A DNA stretch of 64,000 bases, taken from assembly GCA_020628095.1 (NCBI GenBank), contig JAHDFP010000001.1, forward strand, positions 372,001 through 436,000, given 5' to 3'. The notes under the pieces are model-generated. The model was not told where the DNA came from and ran no database searches. It saw only the letters and a program-made list of their open reading frames with translations. The stretch comes from Saprospiraceae bacterium (GTDB lineage: Bacteria > Bacteroidota > Bacteroidia > Chitinophagales > Saprospiraceae). Shown here one piece after another: positions 12,809-37,157 of this stretch (within the stretch, counting starts at the first letter, position 1; each line of letters begins with the position of its first letter). The position numbers and the translations under genes are program-made.

Positions 12809-14425
12809 ATGAAATTATCATTTCGCTTTCTTTTACTCTTTTGTTTTTCATTCGTATTTCAAAATATTCAAGCACAGGATAGTTCTGAGGCCTTAGGTTT
12901 AGATGATCGAATAAATAATGCTTTCGAACCATTTGCCAATTTTTGCCTGAATACTGTATTGTGGGAAGTTCCGGGAACTGGTGTTCCACTAATCATCTTT
13001 TTATTAGTCTTTGGAGCATTGTTCTTTACGGTTTACTTCGGTTTTCCCAATCTCACAAAATTCGGCACAGCCGTTAATGTCGTACGGGGAAAATATGATG
13101 AAATAGAAAAACATGATGGAGCGGGTAAAGCGGAACTAAATATCGTAGATGGCGATATCAAAGACACGATAAGAGATGAGAGCAAAGATGGAGAGGTCAG
13201 TCATTTTCAAGCCTTAGCCACAGCCGTATCTGGAACTGTTGGTCTGGGTAATATCGCTGGTGTAGCCATAGCCATCTCTATAGGTGGTCCAGGGGCAACC
13301 TTCTGGATGATCGTATGTGGATTGCTTGGAATGTCCACCAAATTCGTAGAATGCACGCTTGGTGTAAAATATAGAGACGTTGGTCCAGATGGCACCGTAT
13401 ATGGTGGACCGATGTACTATCTGACTAAAGGATTAAAAGAAAAAGGATTTGCTGGGTTAGGAAAAGTATTAGCCGTCATTTTTGCGATATTATGCATAGG
13501 AGGTTCTTTTGGAGGTGGAAACGCCGCCCAATCTAATCAAGCGGCTCAGCAATTGTCTAATATGCTAGGCATGACTGGAGGTAGCAGTGGATTTATAATA
13601 GGAGTAGTGCTTGCACTTTTGGTAGGTGTTGTTATAATCGGTGGAATTAAGAGGATTGCTTCTGTGACGGAAAAAGTGGTTCCACTAATGGCGGGTATTT
13701 ACATTCTAGCTTGCTTGGTCGTTGTATTCTCTAATTTCTCATATATAGATGATGCTTTTGGTCTAATATTTAAAAATGCTTTTGCTCCAGATGCTGCTGT
13801 AGGTGGATTTTTTGGTGTTCTCATCCAAGGATTTAGAAGAGGTGCATTTTCTAACGAGGCTGGTGCGGGATCTGCATCCATAGCGCATTCAGCAGTGAAG
13901 ACCAAATACCCAGCATCAGAGGGTTTGGTTGCTTTGCTTGAACCTTTTATAGATACAGTAGTGATATGTACGATGACAGCATTAGTCATTATTTTTTATA
14001 ACAGTGGTGCACACTTTGAGTATGGAAGTGTTATCAATGATGAAGTAACCATAGCGGGAGAACAACTAGGAGGAGCAGCATTGACATCTACGGCGTTCGG
14101 ATCAGTATTGCCTTGGTTCCCCTATGTCTTGACAATAGCAATAATATTATTCGCATTCTCTACTATGATTTCTTGGTCTTACTATGGACTTCAATCTTGG
14201 AAATTCTTATTTGGAAAAGGAAAAGCGGCTGACTTAGCATATAAGTTTTTGTTCCTTGCTTTTGTTGTCATAGGAGCTTCCGCGGATATGCAATCGGTTT
14301 GGGGATTTTCTGATGCCATGATCCTAGGTATGGTATTCCCTAATATGATCGGCTTATTCTTTTTGTTCCCAGTTGTAAAATCTGAGTTATCCAAATATCT
14401 CAACGCCATTAAAAATAAAGCCTAG
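12809..14425 (+). CDS. Alanine/glycine:cation symporter (AGCS family)
   Basis: This is a predicted inner-membrane sodium- or proton-coupled amino-acid symporter of the AGCS (AlsT/DagA) family, 538 residues. An N-terminal signal-like segment (residues 1-22, ending NIQAQ) precedes the transporter. Family marks include ATAVSGTVGLGNIAGVAIA, GGPMYYLTKGLKEKG and FRRGAFSNEAGAGSASIAHS, with about ten hydrophobic helices. The insert around residues 95-125 is charged and acidic. It is divergent from thyA and runs directly into folK, whose apparent start is 2 bases after this stop, so the two are probably co-transcribed. Substrate (alanine, glycine or glutamine) cannot be decided from sequence. Confidence 0.92.
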   Translation: MKLSFRFLLLFCFSFVFQNIQAQDSSEALGLDDRINNAFEPFANFCLNTVLWEVPGTGVPLIIFLLVFGALFFTVYFGFPNLTKFGTAVNVVRGKYDEIEKHDGAGKAELNIVDGDIKDTIRDESKDGEVSHFQALATAVSGTVGLGNIAGVAIAISIGGPGATFWMIVCGLLGMSTKFVECTLGVKYRDVGPDGTVYGGPMYYLTKGLKEKGFAGLGKVLAVIFAILCIGGSFGGGNAAQSNQAAQQLSNMLGMTGGSSGFIIGVVLALLVGVVIIGGIKRIASVTEKVVPLMAGIYILACLVVVFSNFSYIDDAFGLIFKNAFAPDAAVGGFFGVLIQGFRRGAFSNEAGAGSASIAHSAVKTKYPASEGLVALLEPFIDTVVICTMTALVIIFYNSGAHFEYGSVINDEVTIAGEQLGGAALTSTAFGSVLPWFPYVLTIAIILFAFSTMISWSYYGLQSWKFLFGKGKAADLAYKFLFLAFVVIGASADMQSVWGFSDAMILGMVFPNMIGLFFLFPVVKSELSKYLNAIKNKA

Positions 14426-14427
14426 CA

Positions 14428-14928
14428 CTGGAGACTTGTATTCTTCATCTGGGTAGCAACCTAGGATATAAAAAGATCAACCTCCAACTGGCGGAGGTCA
14501 TGATTAATAATCATATAGGCACTATATCAGAGTCCTCCTCCCTATATGAGACTGAGGCATGGGGTCTGACAGAGCAAGGATCTTTTATTAATCAAGCTCA
14601 CATCTGTCATACGTCACTATCTCCTGATCAGGTACTAGAGTCTATTGTTATAATAGAGTCTAAAATGGGGAGGAAAAGAGAGCGGAAATGGGGTCCACGT
14701 ATTATAGATATAGACATAATCTACTATGGACAAAAAATTATAAAAAATCCTCATCTATACATTCCTCATCCTGAGCTAAGTCGTCGTAGATTTGTCCTCG
14801 TACCTTTGATGGATATATGTCCTGACCTGATACATCCAGAGCTTGATAAGTCTACAAGACAATTGCTCTCGGAGTGCTCAGACAACTTATCCGTCAAAAA
14901 GATTATTACTAAACCTGAGCATGACTAA
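14428..14928 (+). CDS. folK: 2-amino-4-hydroxy-6-hydroxymethyldihydropteridine pyrophosphokinase, apparent CTG start
   Basis: FolK transfers pyrophosphate from ATP to 6-hydroxymethyl-dihydropterin in folate synthesis. The first ATG in frame is at 14500, but the codons before it encode the N-terminal family motif HLGSNLG followed by a plausible first helix, so translation must begin upstream. The frame is open back to a stop at 14416-14418, and it contains no ATG, GTG or TTG; CTG at 14428 is the best start, giving 166 residues, the normal FolK length. Core motifs are present: LYETEAWG, SFINQAHICHTSLSP, and GRKRERKWGPRIIDIDIIYY. The start lies 2 bases after the symporter stop, and the 3' end overlaps the next gene by 8 bases, suggesting translational coupling. 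Confidence 0.9.
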   Translation: METCILHLGSNLGYKKINLQLAEVMINNHIGTISESSSLYETEAWGLTEQGSFINQAHICHTSLSPDQVLESIVIIESKMGRKRERKWGPRIIDIDIIYYGQKIIKNPHLYIPHPELSRRRFVLVPLMDICPDLIHPELDKSTRQLLSECSDNLSVKKIITKPEHD

Positions 14929-15586
14929 CCATAACAACCAAAATAGTTTCCCTTACGAATATGTCAGTATAGAGGGCAATCTAGGTAGTGGTAAGACATC
15001 GCTCGTCACTAAGTTGTCCAGAGATTATAACGGAAAAGAAATCTTAGAAGCCTTCGAAAACAATCCTTTCCTTCCCTTATTTTATGATAATCCGCAACGA
15101 TACGCCTTTACTGTAGAATTGTTCTTTATGACGGAGCGATTCAAGCAATTACAAGATCAGTTGGCATCTCCTGACTTATTTTCGAGTTGTACATTTTCGG
15201 ATTTCTTTTTTACTAAGTCCCTGCTATTTGCACGTAAAAACTTAGAATCAGAAGAATACAGACTTTTTCAGATGCTTTTCTCTGTTCTATCCAAGTCTTT
15301 TCCAGCACCAGATCTCCTAGTATATCTTCACCGTGACACCAAACATTTGCTTAATAATATCAAAGAAAGAAACCGAAGCTATGAGCAAAATATTCAGGAA
15401 GACTACTTATTGACTATTCAGGATTCTTACTTCGAGTATCTCAGGAATATTACCTCATTTCCAGTCTTGATACTGGACCTACAAGATTTAGATTTTATTC
15501 GTAATCAGAAAAACTACGAAACGATAAAATTTATAATCAGTCAAAAGTACACACCTGGTGTACACAGACTGACCGTCTCGGTATAA
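14921..15586 (+). CDS. Deoxynucleoside kinase (dNK family)
   Basis: This is a predicted deoxynucleoside kinase of the dCK/dGK type, which salvages deoxynucleosides by phosphorylation. The ATG at 14921 gives 221 residues and puts the P-loop GNLGSGKTS near the N-terminus (about residue 20), as usual for the family; an in-frame ATG at 14843 lies well inside folK and is less likely. The ENNPFLPLFYDNP and FFMTERFKQL stretches and the RNRSYEQNIQEDYL lid region are typical. It overlaps folK by 8 bases. The downstream stop is 1 base from the end of the convergent lysS, leaving no room for a terminator between them. Which deoxynucleoside is preferred cannot be read from the sequence. Confidence 0.88.
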   Translation: MTNHNNQNSFPYEYVSIEGNLGSGKTSLVTKLSRDYNGKEILEAFENNPFLPLFYDNPQRYAFTVELFFMTERFKQLQDQLASPDLFSSCTFSDFFFTKSLLFARKNLESEEYRLFQMLFSVLSKSFPAPDLLVYLHRDTKHLLNNIKERNRSYEQNIQEDYLLTIQDSYFEYLRNITSFPVLILDLQDLDFIRNQKNYETIKFIISQKYTPGVHRLTVSV

Positions 15587-15587
15587 C

Positions 15588-17102
15588 TTAAGTCCCTTCT
15601 GGTTTCATCTGAGGGAAAAACAAGACATCCTGTATAGATGGTTGATTAGTCATGATCATAGCAAGTCGATCTATACCTATTCCTATACCTGCTGTCGGAG
15701 GCATACCATACTCCAGAGCTCTTAGATAATCTTCGTCTAACATCATGGCTTCTTCGTCACCGCGTTTTCCGAGCTCCAGTTGATGCTCAAATCTTTGTCT
15801 CTGATCTATTGGATCATTAAGCTCAGAGAAAGCATTACATATTTCTTTAGCGTTGCAGATTCCTTCGAATCTTTCTACGAGGCCTTCAGCAGATCTATGT
15901 TTTTTTGCCAATGGTGACATCTCCACAGGGTAATCAGTAATAAATGTAGGCTGTATCAGCTGATGCTCACACTTCTCACCGAATATCTCATCTATGATCT
16001 TACCTCTCGCCATCGTTTTGTCTATATGTATACCCATATCTTCAGCGGCCTTGCGCATGGTGGCTTCATCCATCTCGGACACATCGACACCCGTAAAATG
16101 CTCTATTGCACCATACATAGTGTATCTCTTCCAAGGTCGCTTAAAACTGATCATATTTTCTCCCACCTGAACATCTGTCGTACCGTGGACTTGCAATGCA
16201 ACATACTCCAGCATTTCTTCTGTAAAGTCCATCATCCACTCATAATCCTTATAAGCCACATACAGTTCCATCATAGTAAACTCAGGATTATGAAAACGGC
16301 TCATCCCTTCGTTACGAAAATCTTTAGCGAACTCGAATACGCCATCATAACCGCCTACTATCAATCTTTTAAGATATAACTCATTAGCTATACGCATATA
16401 GAAAGTCGTATCTAAGGTATTATGATGTGTCTTGAATGGCCTTGCTGCAGCGCCACCATAGATAGGTTGTAAGACCGGAGTCTCCACTTCCAGATACCCC
16501 TTTTCCATCATAAAGCTTCTCATGGCATTGATCATCTTAGATCGTTGCACAAAGGTGGACCTGACCTCTGGATTGACGGTCAGATCGACATAGCGCTGCC
16601 TATATTTGAACTCAGGATCAGACACTCCATCATGTACCTTACCATCCGCATCTGTTTTGACCACGGGTAGAGGCTTGATCGATTTACTCAGAACTGTTAA
16701 TTCTGTGGCATGGATGGATAGCGTACCTGTCTGAGTAGTAAACGCATATCCCCTGACACCGACAAAATCACCTAGGTCCAGATACTTTTTGAATACCTTA
16801 TTATAAAAATCTTTGTCGTCTCCTTTGCATATCTCATCTCTGTTGACATAGATCTGAATTCGACCAGAACTGTCTTGTAACTCCGCGAAAGAAGCCTTAC
16901 CCATGATCCGCTTACTCATGAGTCTACCCGCAATAAGTACATCCTTAAAGTCATCACTACCTTCCTCGTAATTAGCATGAATATCCTTGGCTTCATGCGA
17001 TACCACAAAGGTTTGACTCGGATAAGGATTGATTCCGAGATCAATTATTTTTTGAAGATTTTCTCTCCTGATAATTTCTTGTTCGCTAAGTTGTCTTGAC
17101 AT
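15588..17102 (-). CDS. lysS: Lysyl-tRNA synthetase, class II
   Basis: This enzyme charges tRNA-Lys with lysine. The 504 residues comprise an N-terminal OB-fold anticodon-binding domain (about residues 55-150, with VLIAGRLMSKRIMGKASFAE) and the class II catalytic domain. Motif 2 is visible as FRNEGMSRFHNPEFTMMELY, and motif 3 as GIGIGIDRLAMIM near the C-terminus. The MSRQLSEQEIIRREN start matches bacterial LysS proteins. It converges with the deoxynucleoside kinase gene and diverges from the giant repeat-protein gene. Length and motifs are ordinary. Confidence 0.98.
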   Translation of the reverse strand: MSRQLSEQEIIRRENLQKIIDLGINPYPSQTFVVSHEAKDIHANYEEGSDDFKDVLIAGRLMSKRIMGKASFAELQDSSGRIQIYVNRDEICKGDDKDFYNKVFKKYLDLGDFVGVRGYAFTTQTGTLSIHATELTVLSKSIKPLPVVKTDADGKVHDGVSDPEFKYRQRYVDLTVNPEVRSTFVQRSKMINAMRSFMMEKGYLEVETPVLQPIYGGAAARPFKTHHNTLDTTFYMRIANELYLKRLIVGGYDGVFEFAKDFRNEGMSRFHNPEFTMMELYVAYKDYEWMMDFTEEMLEYVALQVHGTTDVQVGENMISFKRPWKRYTMYGAIEHFTGVDVSEMDEATMRKAAEDMGIHIDKTMARGKIIDEIFGEKCEHQLIQPTFITDYPVEMSPLAKKHRSAEGLVERFEGICNAKEICNAFSELNDPIDQRQRFEHQLELGKRGDEEAMMLDEDYLRALEYGMPPTAGIGIGIDRLAMIMTNQPSIQDVLFFPQMKPEGT

Positions 17103-28825: not shown

Positions 28826-29407
28826 TTGTCAAGCGATACAACATATCATAACAAAGGTAAGGATTGGACTACCATAATAAATGGTTGTGCTAATAACTTA
28901 CGTAGCGATCAAGAAAAACTATATAGACACTTCTTTCCTATTATGGAAAGAATGGTACTACGGTATACCCAAGATGAAGACCAAATTATTGATATACTCA
29001 ATAATGGTTTTCTTCGGGTATTCCAGAATATAAGCAAGTATGAAGGCAAGGGGTCCTTTGAGGGCTGGATAAGAAAAATCATTTTTCGGAGTTTAAGTGA
29101 TTACTTCAGAAAGAGTCGAAAGGATCTTGCTTTCCTTATTTATGAGGAAGAATATAAAAAAGAACCAAGCCAGTCTATTCAGCATAAGTTATACTATCAG
29201 GACTTGGTATCTCTATTAGCTGCTCTTTCTGATACACAAGAGAAGGTGTTTCATCTTTTCGCAATAGAAGGATATAGTCACAAAGAGATAAGTGATCACC
29301 TAGGAATAAATCAGAACACATGCCGATGGCATCTGGCCGAAGCCAGAAAAGTACTACAAAAAGAATATTCCAAAATTTTTAAGAATAATTACTATGAAGC
29401 CGGATAA
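28826..29407 (+). CDS. ECF-type RNA polymerase sigma factor (TTG start)
   Basis: This is a group IV sigma factor of 193 residues. Region 2 lies at about residues 30-95 (DEDQIIDILNNGFLRVFQNI, then GSFEGWIRKIIFRSLSDYFR), and region 4 at 128-180 (LSDTQEKVFHLFAIEGYSHK, then EISDHLGINQNTCRWHLAEA). There is no ATG before region 2, so the TTG at 28826 is the best start. The gene overlaps the next one by 14 bases, the classic arrangement of a sigma factor and its regulator. Region 4 of this shape is common in Bacteroidota ECF factors. The target promoter is not identifiable. Confidence 0.9.
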   Translation: MSSDTTYHNKGKDWTTIINGCANNLRSDQEKLYRHFFPIMERMVLRYTQDEDQIIDILNNGFLRVFQNISKYEGKGSFEGWIRKIIFRSLSDYFRKSRKDLAFLIYEEEYKKEPSQSIQHKLYYQDLVSLLAALSDTQEKVFHLFAIEGYSHKEISDHLGINQNTCRWHLAEARKVLQKEYSKIFKNNYYEAG

Positions 29408-30785
29408 GAAAATAAGTCGAGTAGATAAGGGATGGAATAATATGGCCAATATCTTGGATAAAGAAATGCCTCAAGACAAGAAGAAGCGAAGGTTGTTCAT
29501 TTGGCTCTTCTTTGGCTTAGGACTGCTTATTGGGTTTTCTTATACCATGTTCTTACGTCATGATACGCCACAAGTAGAAAAGAAAATCAAATTAACCGAA
29601 AATACCAATAAGGAAACGACTCTGACATTAAGCGAGAAACCAGCAAGTTCTCTGAATGATAAATCCAGCACTACTGCGACTAATGATACGAAAGAATTGT
29701 CCGTCAATAATAATCCGAAATCAGAATACAAGTCATCTTTGTTAACTACAGAGAAGAAAAACAAATTAAGTCAAAACCAACAGTCTAATATAACTGAACA
29801 CTCATCAGCATCTAATCAAAAAATAAGCAAGTCCAACTTGCTGAAAGACAAGGCCACACCTAACCCAAAAAAAATCGAACAGCAGAAAGATATTGAAACA
29901 AAAAAATCATCTCTTTATTCTCAACTCATAATGACTAAGGATGGCTTACTACTCAAAGAAGAAAGTAAATATGGACATCTAAAGAGCCTTCCTCTTATTG
30001 CCACTAAGCACGCACAGTTAGAATATAAAAAGTCCCTATTGGACTATGCGATCTACCTCCGCGAAAATGAGGACATAGAAATAAGTAATTACCAGTTAGA
30101 TATAAGAGCTTTCGTCAGACCTTCCATTGTATATCAATATATGACAGACCTCAGTGGGCATGGAATCGGTGCTGGAATAGACCTAGGCATAGGTCATGAC
30201 AAATTTTCATTCGGGCTTGCCTTCCAGTATAGCTTTTTTAAGACTAATTTTTTTGAGGATAGAACGTTTGTTTTTGACCAAGACGGACTCTTCTCAGAAT
30301 TAAAATCGGAACAAAGTGTTGATCCGAATACCAGAGGTGGCAATGCATTACCTCCCATTACCTCATATACCGTTACTGCCAATAATGATATATCCTATCC
30401 CAGCTTAGGTGTATTCACTTCTTATCAATTCTTCCCTCACGTAAGCACCAGAGTCGGAATAGGATACGAATGGTATAAAAAAGAAGTAGAAAGTATGCCC
30501 GACCTATCTGAGCAAGATATAAATATGCCAGAAGATATGGACGATCAAGATACTGAAGTGGCTGGCTCTAATACAGAAATGGATTTCGAGCAAGTAATAA
30601 TTCCATTGGATATAAGGAATGATATGTCTAGATTTTTCTATGCAGAAGTAAGTCTGTCCATACAAACCAAAGATAACTTTGGTCTCCTGCTTGGTTATAG
30701 ACGGACATCAGACCCTCGTTACAGAATAAGTAATTACGAAGTTGGCACTTCTAAGTTATTCTTGGGAATAAGTAAAACATTTTAA
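29394..30785 (+). CDS. Membrane-anchored protein with C-terminal barrel-like domain, possible anti-sigma factor
   Basis: This protein of 463 residues overlaps the ECF sigma gene by 14 bases. A short N-terminal cytoplasmic part (residues 1-32, with GWNNMANILDKEMP) is followed by a single helix at 33-55. A low-complexity Ser/Thr/Asn/Lys/Gln region spans about 58-165. The C-terminal 250 residues alternate in a way typical of outer-membrane barrels (AFVRPSIVYQYMTD, GAGIDLGIG, FFYAEVSLSIQ, LLLGYRRTSDPRYR) and end in LFLGISKTF. A single chain with an inner-membrane anchor and a barrel end could span the whole envelope. The anti-sigma role is inferred from position and the short N-terminus. It ends 4 bases inside the convergent PhoD-like gene. 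Confidence 0.75.
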   Translation: MKPDKKISRVDKGWNNMANILDKEMPQDKKKRRLFIWLFFGLGLLIGFSYTMFLRHDTPQVEKKIKLTENTNKETTLTLSEKPASSLNDKSSTTATNDTKELSVNNNPKSEYKSSLLTTEKKNKLSQNQQSNITEHSSASNQKISKSNLLKDKATPNPKKIEQQKDIETKKSSLYSQLIMTKDGLLLKEESKYGHLKSLPLIATKHAQLEYKKSLLDYAIYLRENEDIEISNYQLDIRAFVRPSIVYQYMTDLSGHGIGAGIDLGIGHDKFSFGLAFQYSFFKTNFFEDRTFVFDQDGLFSELKSEQSVDPNTRGGNALPPITSYTVTANNDISYPSLGVFTSYQFFPHVSTRVGIGYEWYKKEVESMPDLSEQDINMPEDMDDQDTEVAGSNTEMDFEQVIIPLDIRNDMSRFFYAEVSLSIQTKDNFGLLLGYRRTSDPRYRISNYEVGTSKLFLGISKTF

Positions 30786-31822: not shown

Positions 31823-31907
31823 CTACTATATATTATATCTAAAGAAAACCAATAGATGTAAAAGCATCAAGAAATAATCAAATAAAATAGGCCCTTAAAA
31901 ACACAGA

Positions 31908-31930
31908 GGCTGTCAGATGAACTGACAGCC
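31908..31930 (-). terminator. 9-bp perfect hairpin, possible terminator
   Basis: GGCTGTCAG (31908-31916) pairs exactly with CTGACAGCC (31922-31930) across a 5-base loop. Read on the minus strand, a T-rich run (five T) follows at a short distance. It may end transcription coming from the operon at 32.2-37.2 kb. The distance from that operon's last stop, about 280 bases, is long. Confidence 0.45.
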
Positions 31931-32071
31931 CTGATTAATAAGGAAGAAATCCTTAATATTGGAATCTATAATGATCAGACCTACGAATTATAATCTTACT
32001 AATGGATTTTTTGTTCTTATAATTGCTAGTGTTCGTTTTTACTAAAAGTTCGTATTTCTTCCATACACACT

Positions 32072-32206: not shown

Positions 32207-32977
32207 TTAAATTCTACCTAGAATTTCTTTTGCTTTGGCTTGATATAAATGGTATTTGGATTCAGCGATACCTTTGATATGATCTTTGAAATTATTCATA
32301 TCATTAAGCTTGAGATATGACAAAGACAGATACCACTCTGCCTGTTGCGACAGTTTAGTGTCAGGATTATCTTGTAATGTATCCAATATGGTCTTTGCTT
32401 CTTCTGCTTTGCCTAGTTCTAAATGGCAAATAGCTTGATACATTTTGATCTTAGGACTTTGCTCTGAGAGAGATAATAGTATATCAAGAGATTCTTGATA
32501 ATCTTTAGATGCATATTTGCTAATTGCCAAGTTGTAGTCATCTATCGATTGATTGGTATTACCGCGTTCTACTTTTTCGGTAGGATAAGGTTGGTAATAG
32601 TCAGCAAATATATTTTTGGGTTTTTCAGATATGAAATAGGGACTTAAAAAAAAAAGTAAAGCCGCTGTGCCGATAAGACCAAGTGCCATTACTATAGACT
32701 TATATCCTGATTTTTCATTTTTTAATGTCTGATCAGAATCTTTAGTTTCGGTTGTATTAGCATGACTCCTTTCGTTCCGAGCTTCTTGGATAACAGTTCT
32801 TAGTTCGTCCACTCTATTCTCAGATAAGGCCTCATATATATCCGTATTGAAATCTAATTTTTTTTGAAAATCAGAATCTTTAATCAATGATTGTACCTCT
32901 TGACCTTCAGATTCAGTCAACTGATCTAACAGAAATTTTTGCACCAAATCTCCAGTATGTTCAGATGAGTTTTTCAT
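32207..32977 (-). CDS. TPR-containing single-pass membrane protein, putative anti-sigma factor
   Basis: This protein of 256 residues overlaps the ECF sigma gene upstream by 17 bases. Its N-terminal cytoplasmic part (about 1-93) starts with HTGDLVQKFLLDQLTESEGQ, the kind of helical segment found in Bacteroidota anti-sigma proteins. A single helix follows (about 94-113, IVMALGLIGTAALLFFLSPY), then a C-terminal part with TPR-like helices (LAISKYASKDYQESLDILLS, then MYQAICHLELGKAEEAKTIL). Topology puts the TPR part in the periplasm. No zinc-binding anti-sigma motif is present. The role is inferred from the gene pair; the TPR part could bind a partner such as the CHAT protein from the same operon. 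Confidence 0.75.
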   Translation of the reverse strand: MKNSSEHTGDLVQKFLLDQLTESEGQEVQSLIKDSDFQKKLDFNTDIYEALSENRVDELRTVIQEARNERSHANTTETKDSDQTLKNEKSGYKSIVMALGLIGTAALLFFLSPYFISEKPKNIFADYYQPYPTEKVERGNTNQSIDDYNLAISKYASKDYQESLDILLSLSEQSPKIKMYQAICHLELGKAEEAKTILDTLQDNPDTKLSQQAEWYLSLSYLKLNDMNNFKDHIKGIAESKYHLYQAKAKEILGRI

Positions 32978-33527
32978 TATATTGTTTCTGTACTATTTTC
33001 ATAAGAGACTTAAAACATCTACTCTTTAAGGTCTTGGCGACATCTCCGCTGGACAAATTCATTTTTTGAGCAATCTCTTTCATACTTAATCGGTCCAGAT
33101 AATACCCTTCTATTATGGACTTACATTTGTCACTCAATTCACTCATCGCCTTATAACATATCGACTTCAACTCTTCCTTATGCAGCTTCTTAGGTGCATC
33201 ATACCCATTATCATATAACACCGTCCTGACCTCATTCACCTTATCCTGAAATCTGAATTTCGCCGACAATTCATTTCTTAGGCTATTGACACAAATTCCT
33301 ACTAAATAATTCTTAATAGATGACACCTCTGTTATCTTGCCAGATACCACATTATCATAGAATATCAACAGGCTCTCACTGAAGATACTTTCAGCCTCAC
33401 TTGCTCCGCACAGCTTCTTAGATAATACGATTCGTATTACATCGTCATGATAGTCATGATATAATTCCTTTAGCTTGCTTGTATTACCACTTACAAATTC
33501 TTCTCTTATCCGAGATAAAGATTCCAT
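32961..33527 (-). CDS. ECF-type RNA polymerase sigma factor
   Basis: This is a sigma-70 family protein of 188 residues. Region 2 is at about residues 20-85 (ELYHDYHDDVIRIVLSKKL, then AESIFSESLLIFYDNVVSGK), and region 4 at about 120-175 (AMSELSDKCKSIIEGYYLD, then RLSMKEIAQKMNLSSGDVAK). Its sequence differs clearly from the ECF factor at 28826, so the two are not recent copies. It overlaps the TPR membrane protein by 17 bases and lies 38 bases after the CHAT gene. Such position suggests that the CHAT and TPR proteins control it, but no target promoter can be read here. Confidence 0.85.
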   Translation of the reverse strand: MESLSRIREEFVSGNTSKLKELYHDYHDDVIRIVLSKKLCGASEAESIFSESLLIFYDNVVSGKITEVSSIKNYLVGICVNSLRNELSAKFRFQDKVNEVRTVLYDNGYDAPKKLHKEELKSICYKAMSELSDKCKSIIEGYYLDRLSMKEIAQKMNLSSGDVAKTLKSRCFKSLMKIVQKQYNEKLI

Positions 33528-33565
33528 TCTACCATATTGATTAGCGTATACTTTGTAATAGCCTA

Positions 33566-36322
33566 TTAAGAATTTTTCCTAAGATAATTCTTTATAATCC
33601 ATGCCACAAAAACTAAAAGTAAAACACCAATAAATACTAAATATAACGAAGAATAAGAATCTATCACCGCCGATGAATCGCCTATCAAAACAAACCCTGC
33701 CCAATAATAGGGATGTGTCTTTTCAGGATTCGCTTTGCTCAGATAAGTGAGCTTGGCTTCTCTTAAGGCCTTATCCTTACTATTCCCCTTCATAAGACTT
33801 GCATAGAAATAGTTCATTAGCTCTGCTGTACGACAATCATCTACCGGCCAGAGACTAACGACTGTACTCTTCGCCCCAGCGTGAAAAAATCCTTTGGACA
33901 ATGACATCGTACCTTCTCCCTGTACCACTTCGCCATAACCACTCTCACAAGCACTCAATACAACCAAATCACTATTCAACTCTGACACCTCTAGATCATT
34001 CACGGTCAGGTAGTCGTCATTAAAATATATTCTACTAAAATCAGGATTTTCTGCATCCATACAAGCGTGCGTTGCGAGATGGATAATCTTAGAATTAGAA
34101 GCCTTATCCATAAAATCCTCTAACGAACCGTCTATCACCACGTTATTACCGTCTGCCAATAGATTACTTATGCCATCTATCTCATTCTTGCTACAGGCCA
34201 AATTCCCTAGAGAGGTACTCATACAAGATCTTTCTGGGAGATAGACGCCGCTATCCGACTTATAAGCATATCCTAGAAAATCGTTAGAATAATCAGCCGA
34301 TTTTCTCGCTTGCAACAATTTCATTAATTTGATAGAGTACTGATACTGAATATTATATCGCTCTAATAACAACTTGTTCTCATTATCCTTGATCGCACCA
34401 AAAGGTATATTATTCAAAACATCATCACCGACTATAATCAAAGAGTTAATATCGGACGACAAGGAATCCAATATCTCCAAACCCAACAATGTATACAAAC
34501 TATCTTGAGCTTCATCCTCTTCAGACCTCATACTTTTGTAGAACTGAGATAATCTAACCTTAAGACTTTTCAGGTCCTTCAGCTTTTCTATTCTATAAGA
34601 ATCCTTGGTTATAAAAACCACATAAGCATTTTCCTTCCCTATAAAATACTCCACAACTACCTCTACCCCCGTAATCAACTTCTGAACGTCATCTATAGTC
34701 GTCGGCGTCAAATCATATTTAAGCTTATAGTATTGTGGGTATTCGTTTTCTAACTTCTTGTTAAGTCTATCTAACTCTATCTGCTTATTAGATTTCTCAA
34801 GCCTCAAATTATTCAGAACGCTACTATCCTGTACGGCATTCTCAGAAAAGGATTCTATTTCGGATTCTAAAAAGTTTAGTTCTTGCTTAAGTTCTTTTTC
34901 AGACTCTAATAACTCAGGTGGTAGATTTGCATAACCCTTGCTATCGGATTCGTTTATCTCTTGCGCTAAGAGATTAGACTTATTTTCTTCTATCAAAGAG
35001 TAACAAGCTTCTAAATCTCCCTCGCTATAGTAGAAATCTATGGCTTTTTCTATTATGGATAAGTATTGATTCGCCCAAAATTGTTTGTGGGAGGCGGTTG
35101 TGTTTTCTATTCTGAATGCTCTTATTATGTTTAAAATATCAACCATCATTTTCTCCGTTGATTCTTTATCTCCATTCGCAATTTTTACATCTATGAGTTT
35201 ATTTAGAAGCCTTACTGTTAGATCCTTATTCTTTACTTTTCTTGGATTATCCAAAAGATTTAAGTTTCCAAGTTTGACCAACCCTTTATTTAAATATTTT
35301 TCCGAATTGTCCAACATGTTTTGGCTCTCGTAAAAATCGCTTAACCTTTCATATATCTCACATATCGATACATCAAGACTAATGCCACTAGTCTGTAGCG
35401 ATTCCAATATTTTTGTGGCATTATCCACATTCTCTCTTATCGAATTCAAATCTTTATTTGAACTTTTCATTTCTAATAATGCCAATAATTCAATGTATTT
35501 GGCTTCAATTATCTGTGTTCTAAATGGTCTAGAGTGTTTTTCAATCTTTTCAAGATACTTTTCTACCAACTCCAATTCATTAAGCACTAGAGCATCTCTT
35601 GTAATTGCAACCTGATAAAGTTGAATTTCATCTATATATTCTGGCTCATTTTGGTTTTCTAAAATTTCTAATGACCTTATAAGGTTTTCCAAAGAAACAT
35701 ACTGAAATCCCATTCGTTTATGAATAACCGCTAATTCACTATAAGAATCGAACTCCACGAATGCTTTATATGGGTTCTTGTTCGCAGTCAAGGCTAATTC
35801 TATATAATCTCTTCCTTTAACATAATCACCAAGTGAAATGTAATGTTTTGCAATATCATTATATAGTGAAGCCAAAGCGGGACTTTTCAATTTCGCTGCT
35901 ATTTCAATTCCTCTTTCGCAATAATCAATAGCCTTTAAATACATTCTTTTCCTCCTATATATACTAGAGTAATTAGCATAGATATAAGTCAAATATTCAT
36001 TATTTATTTCAGCGTGAACTTTTACTAAACTATCAGCTTTAATATTTACTATCTCAAACCGAAGTACATCGCTATTATAGAAATGGACTGTAGCCAGTTT
36101 GAGCAAAGCCTTGACCTGATTTTCATAATCACCAATTTTATTGCTAAGTTCTTCTGCATGATTTAACAACACTATATTTTGGGTAAATGGTCCATTAGGA
36201 TTCCAAAGGTTATCCGATTGTTCAAACAGTCTTTGAATTTTTAACGAATCACTTAAATCAAAATTTGAGAATAAATTATTACTAAATAATAAAAAAGTTA
36301 TCAAGTAATAATTTATTCTCAT
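33566..36322 (-). CDS. TPR-CHAT protease-like protein, periplasmic with C-terminal membrane anchor
   Basis: CHAT domains are caspase-like cysteine peptidases. From the ATG at 36322 the protein has 918 residues and opens with a signal peptide (MRINYYLITFLLFSNNLFSN); an in-frame TTG at 36337 is less likely. Residues 40-430 form TPR-like helical repeats, a coiled-coil-like acidic helix region follows (about 470-540), and the CHAT domain spans about 550-885. The catalytic pair is visible: His752 in HLATHAC and Cys792 in VVLSACESG. A single helix at about 892-911 and a basic tail (KNYLRKNS) end the chain, so the peptidase domain should face the periplasm. It follows the Cys-rich secreted protein by 16 bases and precedes the ECF sigma gene by 38. 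Substrate unknown. Confidence 0.9.
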   Translation of the reverse strand: MRINYYLITFLLFSNNLFSNFDLSDSLKIQRLFEQSDNLWNPNGPFTQNIVLLNHAEELSNKIGDYENQVKALLKLATVHFYNSDVLRFEIVNIKADSLVKVHAEINNEYLTYIYANYSSIYRRKRMYLKAIDYCERGIEIAAKLKSPALASLYNDIAKHYISLGDYVKGRDYIELALTANKNPYKAFVEFDSYSELAVIHKRMGFQYVSLENLIRSLEILENQNEPEYIDEIQLYQVAITRDALVLNELELVEKYLEKIEKHSRPFRTQIIEAKYIELLALLEMKSSNKDLNSIRENVDNATKILESLQTSGISLDVSICEIYERLSDFYESQNMLDNSEKYLNKGLVKLGNLNLLDNPRKVKNKDLTVRLLNKLIDVKIANGDKESTEKMMVDILNIIRAFRIENTTASHKQFWANQYLSIIEKAIDFYYSEGDLEACYSLIEENKSNLLAQEINESDSKGYANLPPELLESEKELKQELNFLESEIESFSENAVQDSSVLNNLRLEKSNKQIELDRLNKKLENEYPQYYKLKYDLTPTTIDDVQKLITGVEVVVEYFIGKENAYVVFITKDSYRIEKLKDLKSLKVRLSQFYKSMRSEEDEAQDSLYTLLGLEILDSLSSDINSLIIVGDDVLNNIPFGAIKDNENKLLLERYNIQYQYSIKLMKLLQARKSADYSNDFLGYAYKSDSGVYLPERSCMSTSLGNLACSKNEIDGISNLLADGNNVVIDGSLEDFMDKASNSKIIHLATHACMDAENPDFSRIYFNDDYLTVNDLEVSELNSDLVVLSACESGYGEVVQGEGTMSLSKGFFHAGAKSTVVSLWPVDDCRTAELMNYFYASLMKGNSKDKALREAKLTYLSKANPEKTHPYYWAGFVLIGDSSAVIDSYSSLYLVFIGVLLLVFVAWIIKNYLRKNS

Positions 36323-36338
36323 TACAACTTTACTCAAA

Positions 36339-37157
36339 TTACAACTTTACAATTTTTCTAACTAAAATAATGTTCTCATTTCTGATACACTGAAGAATGT
36401 AAAACCCTGAATTCAATCCTTTTGCATCTAACGTAATGTAATCAGATGAAATAAAATCTCTTTCCAAAACTTTCTGACCCGCAGAATTGAATAGCATTAG
36501 CTTATCACCATTTTTCAAATTTAGTAAGTTGATCTTATGATTAAACGGATTGGGGTTTATTGAAATATTCTCAATAGAATAATCAGAATTCCTTTGATTA
36601 ATTGAGGTTTCGTAAGGAACTGGAGTAGTGTCACCTTCAGAAGACTCTGGTTCTTCGGCAAAAACATCGCAACACATTCTTGGGTAAAAGGCAAGGAATT
36701 CACATCCTTCCTCAACCAAAATACAGTTAGGATCGAAATAATCTGGTGGAAAAACATCTGCTAAACATTGACCATTAATAGTCAATCCGTACTCTATCAA
36801 GATATTAATAAAATTTTCACATTCAATTGAGTTAACACAAACGGTTACTCTCACGTCATATCTATATCGAACGCAGCCTGTAGCAGGGTCTTCCATTTCG
36901 CTGAACAATGAAATTTGATTTCTACTAATATTCACAGAGTGACTTGAAGAAGCTGTAATTTCAATCTGATTAAGTAGATCACTCGGAATTTTCTTTGTTG
37001 TTACAAAGAATAAATCTAAAGACACGCATTCTTGGCATCCATGACCTGTTCCTCCTCCTTCCTCTGGTTTGGAATTGCTTGTCAAAGGCTGTGACATTAA
37101 TGAAATAGCCATTAACGAAAAAATAAAAATGGAAACAAAAAGTTTAATTCTATTCAT
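36339..37157 (-). CDS. Small Cys-rich secreted protein with T9SS type A sorting domain
   Basis: This protein has about 272 residues from the ATG at 37157, which starts a signal peptide (MNRIKLFVSIFIFSLMAISL); an in-frame upstream start at 37229 adds 24 residues without a signal character. The mature part has about eleven cysteines, including CQEC, and a CNQSIEC-like stretch (here CVNSIEC), plus GCEFLAFYPRMCCDVF. The C-terminal 80 residues form a T9SS type A sorting domain (ISINPNPFNHKINLLNL, LMLFNSAGQKVL, GFYILQCIRNENIILVRKIV). It is the first gene of the operon with the CHAT protein and the sigma factor. I do not recognise the Cys-rich part. Confidence 0.8.
   Translation of the reverse strand: MNRIKLFVSIFIFSLMAISLMSQPLTSNSKPEEGGGTGHGCQECVSLDLFFVTTKKIPSDLLNQIEITASSSHSVNISRNQISLFSEMEDPATGCVRYRYDVRVTVCVNSIECENFINILIEYGLTINGQCLADVFPPDYFDPNCILVEEGCEFLAFYPRMCCDVFAEEPESSEGDTTPVPYETSINQRNSDYSIENISINPNPFNHKINLLNLKNGDKLMLFNSAGQKVLERDFISSDYITLDAKGLNSGFYILQCIRNENIILVRKIVKL

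Follow-up and report, generated by a model that had tools for sequence, protein, structure and literature searches.

A membrane-bound caspase-like protease that probably cuts the membrane protein keeping a sigma factor captive in Bacteroidota

We analysed a window of 64,000 nucleotides from the genome of Saprospiraceae bacterium (GenBank assembly GCA_020628095.1, 4.2 Mb in 33 contigs; the window is contig JAHDFP010000001.1, positions 372,001 to 436,000 of the forward strand). Four of its open reading frames (ORFs), all on the minus strand, encode a secreted protein with a type IX secretion system (T9SS) sorting domain, a protein with tetratricopeptide repeats (TPRs) and a CHAT peptidase domain (TPR-CHAT), an extracytoplasmic function (ECF) sigma factor and a membrane TPR protein, respectively. 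This gene set is a conserved module in many Bacteroidota. Its caspase-like protease, bound to the membrane, probably cleaves a membrane protein that keeps the sigma factor captive. Specifically, the CHAT protein would be a site-1 protease that cuts the linker of the TPR protein, a putative anti-sigma factor, after Arg or Lys, starting sigma factor release. Judging from conservation patterns in the sequences, we consider this the best explanation of the whole, and believe it somewhat more than we doubt it.

As the preliminary description of this DNA had stated, the four genes run in the same direction with intergenic gaps of 16 and 38 bases, followed by a 17-base overlap between the sigma factor and TPR protein genes; these values agreed exactly with the ORF list. 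An ATG start gives the T9SS protein gene a span of 36339-37157, and a TTG start would lengthen it to 37229. The ATG of the TPR-CHAT gene is at 36322, with an alternative TTG at 36337. A same-strand gene upstream stops 101 bases ahead of the ATG of the T9SS protein gene. The features of the module are as follows.

36339 to 37157, minus: secreted Cys-rich protein with T9SS type A sorting domain, at the place before the CHAT gene that we term position X (Por_Secre_tail E 2e-7; TIGR04183 33.6 bits)
33566 to 36322, minus: TPR-CHAT peptidase with signal-like N-terminus and C-terminal transmembrane (TM) anchor (PF12770 187 bits against a cut-off of 24; AlphaFold predicted local distance difference test (pLDDT) 79)
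34181 to 34183, minus: Glu719 codon, second predicted S1 acid (E in 72/76 linked CHATs; analogy with separase and gingipain, after PMC4626109)
34067 to 34069, minus: catalytic His757 codon, counted from TTG, or His752 from ATG (H in 76/76 linked CHATs)
33947 to 33949, minus: catalytic Cys797 codon, counted from TTG, or Cys792 from ATG (C in 76/76 linked CHATs)
33836 to 33838, minus: Asp834 codon, predicted S1-pocket acid for a basic P1 residue (D in 68 and E in 8 of 76 linked CHATs)
33572 to 33649, minus: CHAT C-terminal TM helix, 897-922 in the model (AlphaFold model, hydropathy, charge)
32961 to 33527, minus: ECF sigma factor (TIGR02937 54.3 bits against a cut-off of 42.9)
32207 to 32977, minus: membrane TPR protein, predicted anti-sigma factor (gene position, TPR_6 match, one hydrophobic segment)
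32765 to 32968, minus: predicted cytoplasmic anti-sigma domain, four helices, residues 4-71 (AlphaFold pLDDT 72; top PDB entries MucA, MucA and RslA)
32642 to 32698, minus: single TM segment of the TPR protein (hydropathy, charge bias)
32561 to 32566, minus: Arg138-Gly139 in the periplasmic linker, predicted CHAT cleavage site (alignment column R 85, K 15, M 3 of 110; shuffled control)
32210 to 32542, minus: periplasmic TPR domain of the TPR protein (TPR matches, topology prediction)

Recurrence of the gene set

The source genome contains six CHAT matches. All five of its large TPR-CHAT genes (5/5) adjoin an ECF sigma factor and a one-TM TPR protein. Besides the window locus, contig C33 has the identical four-gene order, contig C5 at 168 kb a CHAT gene and T9SS protein gene with the sigma-TPR pair divergent, contig C11 the module with one intervening gene, and contig C5 at 419 kb the order sigma-TPR-CHAT. 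The sixth CHAT, on contig C23, is short and unlinked.

The gene association extends beyond this genome, recurring in relatives and in a sample of the phylum. The source genome and its relatives harbour 65 CHATs longer than 600 residues; in 33 of them, both a sigma factor gene and a TPR protein gene are at most three genes away, and 12 of the 32 unlinked ones are close to a contig end. Among named GTDB records, the best 80 of 509 relatives, 43 of 83 CHATs are linked, and 17 of the 40 unlinked are close to a contig end. The 60 relative loci were chosen from the match list as strong matches with flanks, not at random, 20 loci were chosen for having no nearby CHAT, and nine further CHAT loci for mixed reasons; the presence of a CHAT near 85 of the 111 sigma-adjacent relatives of the TPR protein in the fetched loci is a product of this choice and not a rate. 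Among the nine further loci (seven outside the class, two inside), a sigma-TPR pair is found within five genes in two, L213 and L216, both outside. Named carriers of the linked module are Aquimarina, Marinifilum, Muriicola, Pseudozobellia, Phaeodactylibacter and several Saprospiraceae, and the module recurs in Saprospiraceae, Flavobacteriaceae, Marinifilum and Cyclobacteriaceae records. Its genes can be co-directional as in an operon, divergent or convergent; the linkage is therefore not mere operon carry-over.

A profile of the TPR protein searched against 247 genomes of the phylum gave 53 matches at E 1e-25 or better, in 28 genomes. Among the matches listed, 41 of the 53 have a CHAT within 10 kb by hand count, where chance would give fewer than two (estimated for up to seven CHATs per 4-6 Mb genome); CHAT-linked proteins served to build the profile, and this pushes the linkage upwards. 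In 296 genomes of the class, again among the matches listed, a CHAT is present in 47 of the 51 with a full-length TPR protein match (roughly model positions <=60 to >=195) and in 54 of the 245 others (hand count; Fisher p 1e-21, inflated by genome kinship, 12 of the 51 genomes coming from one genus, so that the true p is larger). Outside the class, the matches listed for the phylum sample place a CHAT in 87 genomes and the TPR protein in two. The distance matrices of 72 gene triplets correlated with r values of 0.67 (CHAT-TPR), 0.61 (CHAT-sigma) and 0.77 (TPR-sigma), and permutation within the four genomes with at least three modules gave p values of 0.024, 0.006 and 0.002, respectively. The genes thus tend to travel as sets.

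CHAT genes also occur in other settings. The sixth CHAT of the source genome (L011, 4158-9878) lacks a signal peptide and adjoins, by eye, a leucine-rich-repeat-like protein and a nuclease-like ORF, and looks like part of an unrelated conflict system. In genomes from outside the class, the CHAT genes belonging to family f38 (L212, L213, L216 and L217) hold a fixed place by ftsY-like and pgsA-like genes, as judged by eye, and form a housekeeping-looking lineage. Another recurrent neighbourhood, mostly in Saprospirales (L116, L122, L135, L144, L151, L157 and L175), comprises four divergent genes of about 240-370 residues and, in 5 of the 7 loci, a gene of about 520-570 residues right before the CHAT; no sigma factor or TPR anti-sigma gene was detected there.

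The predicted protease, anti-sigma factor and cleavage site

Along with the CHAT domain, TPRs were matched in the TPR-CHAT protein. His752 and Cys792 lie within HLATHAC and LSACES motifs conserved across the family, and the dyad is intact in all 76 linked CHATs, in line with the expectation in the preliminary description that orthologues would keep the catalytic pair. The C-terminal anchor claimed there was also borne out (a clear TM segment, hydropathy 3.0); the claimed signal peptide is recognizable only by eye, with a score of 1.6, slightly below the cut of 1.8. By the same hydropathy cut, 72 of the 76 linked CHATs have a signal-like N-terminus and 57, the window protein included, a C-terminal TM segment, and charge bias fits a C-terminus-in topology in 48 of these 57. 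Taken together, fold, dyad and topology predict a periplasmic, membrane-tethered cysteine peptidase of clan CD.

The best structural match of the CHAT model was Csx29 (Z 29.8, root mean square deviation (rmsd) 12.4 over 586 residues), and DdvA was also matched (Z 22.6, rmsd 16.1 over 529). Plain TPR proteins score Z 20-24 against the model, so that whole-chain scores alone are unspecific, and the matches of the protease part weigh most: separase ctSPD (Z 25.9, rmsd 3.4 over 311 residues) and the Arg-gingipain RgpB (Z 20.0, rmsd 3.4 over 280). When the CHAT profile was run against PDB sequences, DdvA came first (E 8e-10), followed by Csx29 (E 1e-5 to 5e-5).

The neighbouring ECF sigma factor is matched by Sigma70_r4 (E 7e-7) and by the sigma70-ECF profile TIGR02937 (E 1e-14) from Pfam/NCBIfam. 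As for the TPR protein, four helices are predicted in residues 1-70. A Foldseek search of this domain against 350,542 PDB chains placed MucA, in its cytoplasmic AlgU-bound part, at ranks 1, 3, 4 and 5 and RslA at rank 14, all of them weak matches with E 4.0-8.3. The first three entries of a second structure comparison were MucA (Z 6.2, rmsd 7.1, 70 residues aligned), MucA (Z 6.1, rmsd 8.5, 75) and RslA (Z 4.6, rmsd 2.5, 48), with the other entries at Z <=4.0; values of 4.6-6.2 are below the level trusted for helical bundles. A zinc motif, Hx3Cx2C, is present in 2 of 87 relatives and, by eye, in L187 and L196, and the window protein has neither this motif nor a zf-HC2/ASDI profile match; such features are not demanded of every class I anti-sigma factor. 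In L196, zf-HC2 scored 21.8 bits against a cut-off of 22.2 (E 2e-4). Hx3Cx2C across helices 2 and 3 is given as the zinc motif of ASDI domains in a passage of an mSystems survey (PMC7406223). In 105 of the 111 relatives, Lys and Arg are more abundant ahead of the TM segment than after it, which fits a TPR-out topology. The TPR part is thus predicted to be periplasmic, placing it on the same side as the CHAT part, as the preliminary description had proposed. The fold, the gene order and the relatives with the zinc motif lead us to infer a role for the TPR protein as a membrane anti-sigma factor, with the ECF sigma factor held by its short helical domain in the cytoplasm. Two further loci carry fusion ORFs, with a segment of sigma region 2 leading straight into the TM-TPR part (L194, 6995-7936; L210, 7005-7976); they are either frameshifted remnants or membrane-tethered sigma-like proteins.

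The linker between the TM segment and the TPRs contains a near-invariant basic residue. Alignment column 138 consists of R 85, K 15 and M 3 of 110, and column 139 of G 50, S 37, N 7 and A 5. With 101 non-redundant proteins, one linker column is R/K in 90 of 100, and the next residue is G/S/A/N/T/D in 88; in 20 rounds of shuffling the linkers and aligning them anew, no column had R/K in more than 22. This column test superseded a strict regular expression (47/85 proteins near a CHAT, 8/26 others), which had overlooked the R-S present in the linkers of L213 and L216.

According to PMC4626109, separases and gingipain R hold the P1 Arg through an acidic residue where helix 1 begins, to which the separase model adds one in helix 4. 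By secondary-structure order, we infer that these acids correspond to Glu719 and Asp834. Position 719 is E in 72 of the 76 linked CHATs, and position 834 is an acid (D or E) in every one. Aligned by the profile, DdvA has Asp in the column of Asp834, and the Csx29 shown carries no acidic residue there. The linker and the S1 pocket fit each other, and neither was derived from the other. On these grounds, cleavage of the TPR protein linker by CHAT is predicted after Arg138. Overall, the interpretation in the preliminary description was partly supported: its proposal that CHAT acts on the TPR protein gained independent support from linker and pocket, with the cleavage itself a prediction. Each of the three findings that it had named as refuting (a gene order confined to this genome, loss of the catalytic pair among orthologues, separate compartments for TPR and CHAT parts) was looked for, and none refuted it.

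Proposed mechanism and rival explanations

We propose that the cytoplasmic helical domain of the TPR protein would hold the ECF sigma factor until an envelope or surface signal, perhaps via the T9SS protein or its stand-ins, triggers CHAT. CHAT would cut the anti-sigma linker after the Arg or Lys just outside the membrane, and a site-2 protease would then cut the stump and free the sigma factor, by analogy with RseA/DegS/RseP. DegS is a PDZ serine protease; here, a separase/caspase-like enzyme would perform its step. The source genome contains one M50 match as a site-2 protease candidate.

The gene at position X differs among loci. T9SS proteins precede CHAT in the window and in L102, L103 and L105 (by Pfam), and T9SS-type genes in L007, L008 and L095 (by a profile started from the window protein). 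A lipoprotein family unrelated to the T9SS protein takes the place in Flavobacteriaceae and some others, and a Peptidase_S8 subtilase (5/5 tested) in L009, L071, L121, L126 and L156. Many linked CHATs have none of these three there. The GTS-S-A subtilase motif occurred in 7 of 2388 ORFs of the fetched loci, and in all seven cases the next gene is a CHAT gene. The loci had mostly been chosen for their CHAT, however, and the motif misses some subtilases (such as the subtilase-like ORF of L184). The subtilases before CHAT suggest a two-protease cascade. The T9SS protein, which had been put forward as a cleavage substrate, was set back in the role of a conserved one, as position X varies between T9SS protein, lipoprotein and subtilase. 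We take position X as an input or activator rather than a common substrate.

Taken broadly, the proposal describes a widespread Bacteroidota envelope pathway that exchangeable secreted inputs (T9SS protein, lipoprotein, subtilase) would trigger. Its dedicated site-1 proteases would be separase/caspase-like, membrane-tethered TPR-CHAT proteins, which would cut after Arg/Lys in the juxtamembrane linker of TPR anti-sigma factors that are proteins of their own. The pathway would supply part of the missing Bacteroidota anti-sigma factors. In this wide form we offer it tentatively, with slightly more doubt than belief.

Several results weigh against the proposed mechanism. Besides the profile and kinship biases and the low scores of the anti-sigma fold given above, no anti-sigma factor came up when PDB sequences were searched with the anti-sigma domain. 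For about half of the CHATs, no sigma-TPR pair was detected up to three genes away, and these keep the dyad H and C (70/72) and the S1 acids (E at 719 in 63/72, D or E at 834 in 67/72), so that the residues are not special to linked CHATs. The linker R/K is also found in sigma-TPR pairs without a nearby CHAT. Of five TPR proteins from genomes without CHAT at the thresholds used, three have R/K plus a small residue (by eye, K-T in G115, R-G in the sigma/TPR fusion of G260 and R-G in G480) and two do not (G205 and G339); the expected loss of the linker Arg in such genomes thus met with a mixed result.

Four alternatives were considered. CHAT may be the output and not the trigger, with the sigma/anti-sigma pair controlling the neighbouring CHAT gene and CHAT cutting, for example, the secreted neighbour or another envelope target. 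ECF sigma factors often drive adjacent genes, and the unlinked half of the CHATs with its equally kept dyad, as well as the sigma-TPR pairs with no adjoining CHAT, would suit this explanation. However, it leaves both the near-invariant linker Arg/Lys and the genome-level tie between CHAT and the TPR protein unexplained, and we regard it as unlikely, while still the most serious competitor. It is improbable that the CHAT and TPR proteins, joined by their TPRs, act as a sensor complex without proteolysis, with the peptidase fold as a scaffold: TPRs are predicted in the periplasm in both proteins, and DdvA, a CHAT protein, is itself an anti-sigma factor by PDB title, but the dyad and the S1 acid are each kept in 76/76 linked CHATs. 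Somewhat less credible again is another envelope protease (the subtilase before CHAT, or a DegS/Prc-like enzyme) as the site-1 enzyme, activated by CHAT upstream in a cascade. The place of all seven subtilase-motif ORFs and the Peptidase_S8 assignments would agree with this, as would a subtilase-like ORF adjoining the CHAT-less pair in L184, but no subtilase was found among the eight window proteins scanned, and the gene before CHAT is something else in most linked loci. Adjacency without function, by chance clustering or hitchhiking, accords with the varying gene order and orientation but is hardly credible against 41 of 53 linked matches and recurrence in Saprospiraceae, Flavobacteriaceae, Marinifilum and Cyclobacteriaceae, and was set aside on linkage counts, co-occurrence and co-inheritance.

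Relation to known systems and surrounding sequence

The proposed site-1 cleavage by CHAT has precedents in DdvA/DdvS, Craspase and the ECF54 neighbourhood, contrary to the earlier impression that nothing of the kind had been described. DdvA is a transmembrane anti-sigma factor of Myxococcus xanthus according to its PDB title (entries 8rot and 8rw5), and is called the cognate anti-sigma factor of DdvS in PMC4374960. DdvS, and DdvA by a cited title, are tied to a CBASS-CRISPR island in a review and its reference list (PMC12288465). DdvA resembles the present system in being a CHAT-domain transmembrane anti-sigma factor with an ECF sigma partner, the module here having a homologous CHAT and a neighbouring ECF sigma factor. 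It differs in being one polypeptide, whereas the anti-sigma factor (domain-TM-TPR) and the protease (signal-TPR-CHAT-TM) are two proteins here; no DdvA-like fusion was found, with the anti-sigma profile matching 0 of 153 CHAT ORFs at E 1. The authors of the DdvA work reportedly propose CHAT autoproteolysis followed by RseP.

In Craspase (type III-E CRISPR), the TPR-CHAT protein Csx29 cuts Csx30, relieving inhibition of the ECF sigma factor RpoE/CASP-sigma, as stated in PMC10028731. The likeness is a TPR-CHAT protease acting on an ECF sigma inhibitor. Craspase, however, is RNA-activated with Cas7-11, and Csx30 is another kind of protein. Its cytoplasmic TPR-CHAT also differs from the module CHAT, for which a signal-like N-terminus and a C-terminal TM segment are predicted. 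Cut sites given for the Csx29 type in PMC11106740 (A|S, L|D and M|K) have no basic P1, and Csx29 is without the S1 acid that the module CHAT has. ECF54 neighbourhoods contain CHAT and subtilase genes beside the ECF sigma gene, and proteolytic control has been proposed (PMC8999054, section 3.3). The model member differs in coming from Geodermatophilus, an actinobacterium. The ECF54 context is defined by a sigma factor of that group without an anti-sigma factor. In the RseA/DegS/RseP system, an ECF sigma factor is released stepwise from a membrane anti-sigma factor, as outlined in PMC10028731; the site-1 enzyme here would differ in being a clan CD cysteine peptidase. Separases share helical repeats, a caspase-like domain and P1 Arg (PMC4626109), but are eukaryotic with cohesin as substrate.

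No description of the split two-protein Bacteroidota module was found in the titles and abstracts of the literature searched, subscription papers and supplements being beyond this search. The split version looks undescribed; the underlying idea is known from other bacterial systems and is not a new category. In the mSystems survey (PMC7406223), a class I anti-sigma factor accompanies only 6% of Bacteroidetes ECF sigma factors, compared with an average of 32%. The module is a recurrent candidate for some of the missing Bacteroidota ECF regulators, with an unusual way of switching. The prediction names one scissile bond (R138-G139) and one catalytic residue. If the proposal is true, separase-like TPR-CHAT proteases, known from Craspase, would gain an envelope role, and DdvA and Craspase would be linked as two versions of a common principle, the control of an ECF sigma inhibitor by a CHAT protease.

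Around the module, searches of the window gave no Rfam match at gathering scores, and a promoter scan was not above shuffles (21 sites against a shuffled mean of 25). PADLOC reported nothing for the four genes and one weak Csa3 match to a neighbouring sigma factor; a genome-wide Cas7-11 search was not made. A pattern match indicates one further feature.

31907 to 31931, minus: terminator-like hairpin 3' of the TPR protein gene (10-bp stem and T tract)

At 28826-30785 on the plus strand, the window contains a second ECF sigma factor followed by a 463-residue one-TM protein with a C-terminus that looks beta-rich by eye. This is a different sigma/anti-sigma-like pair without an adjoining CHAT, and a similar layout is seen in L008 at 13898-15878.

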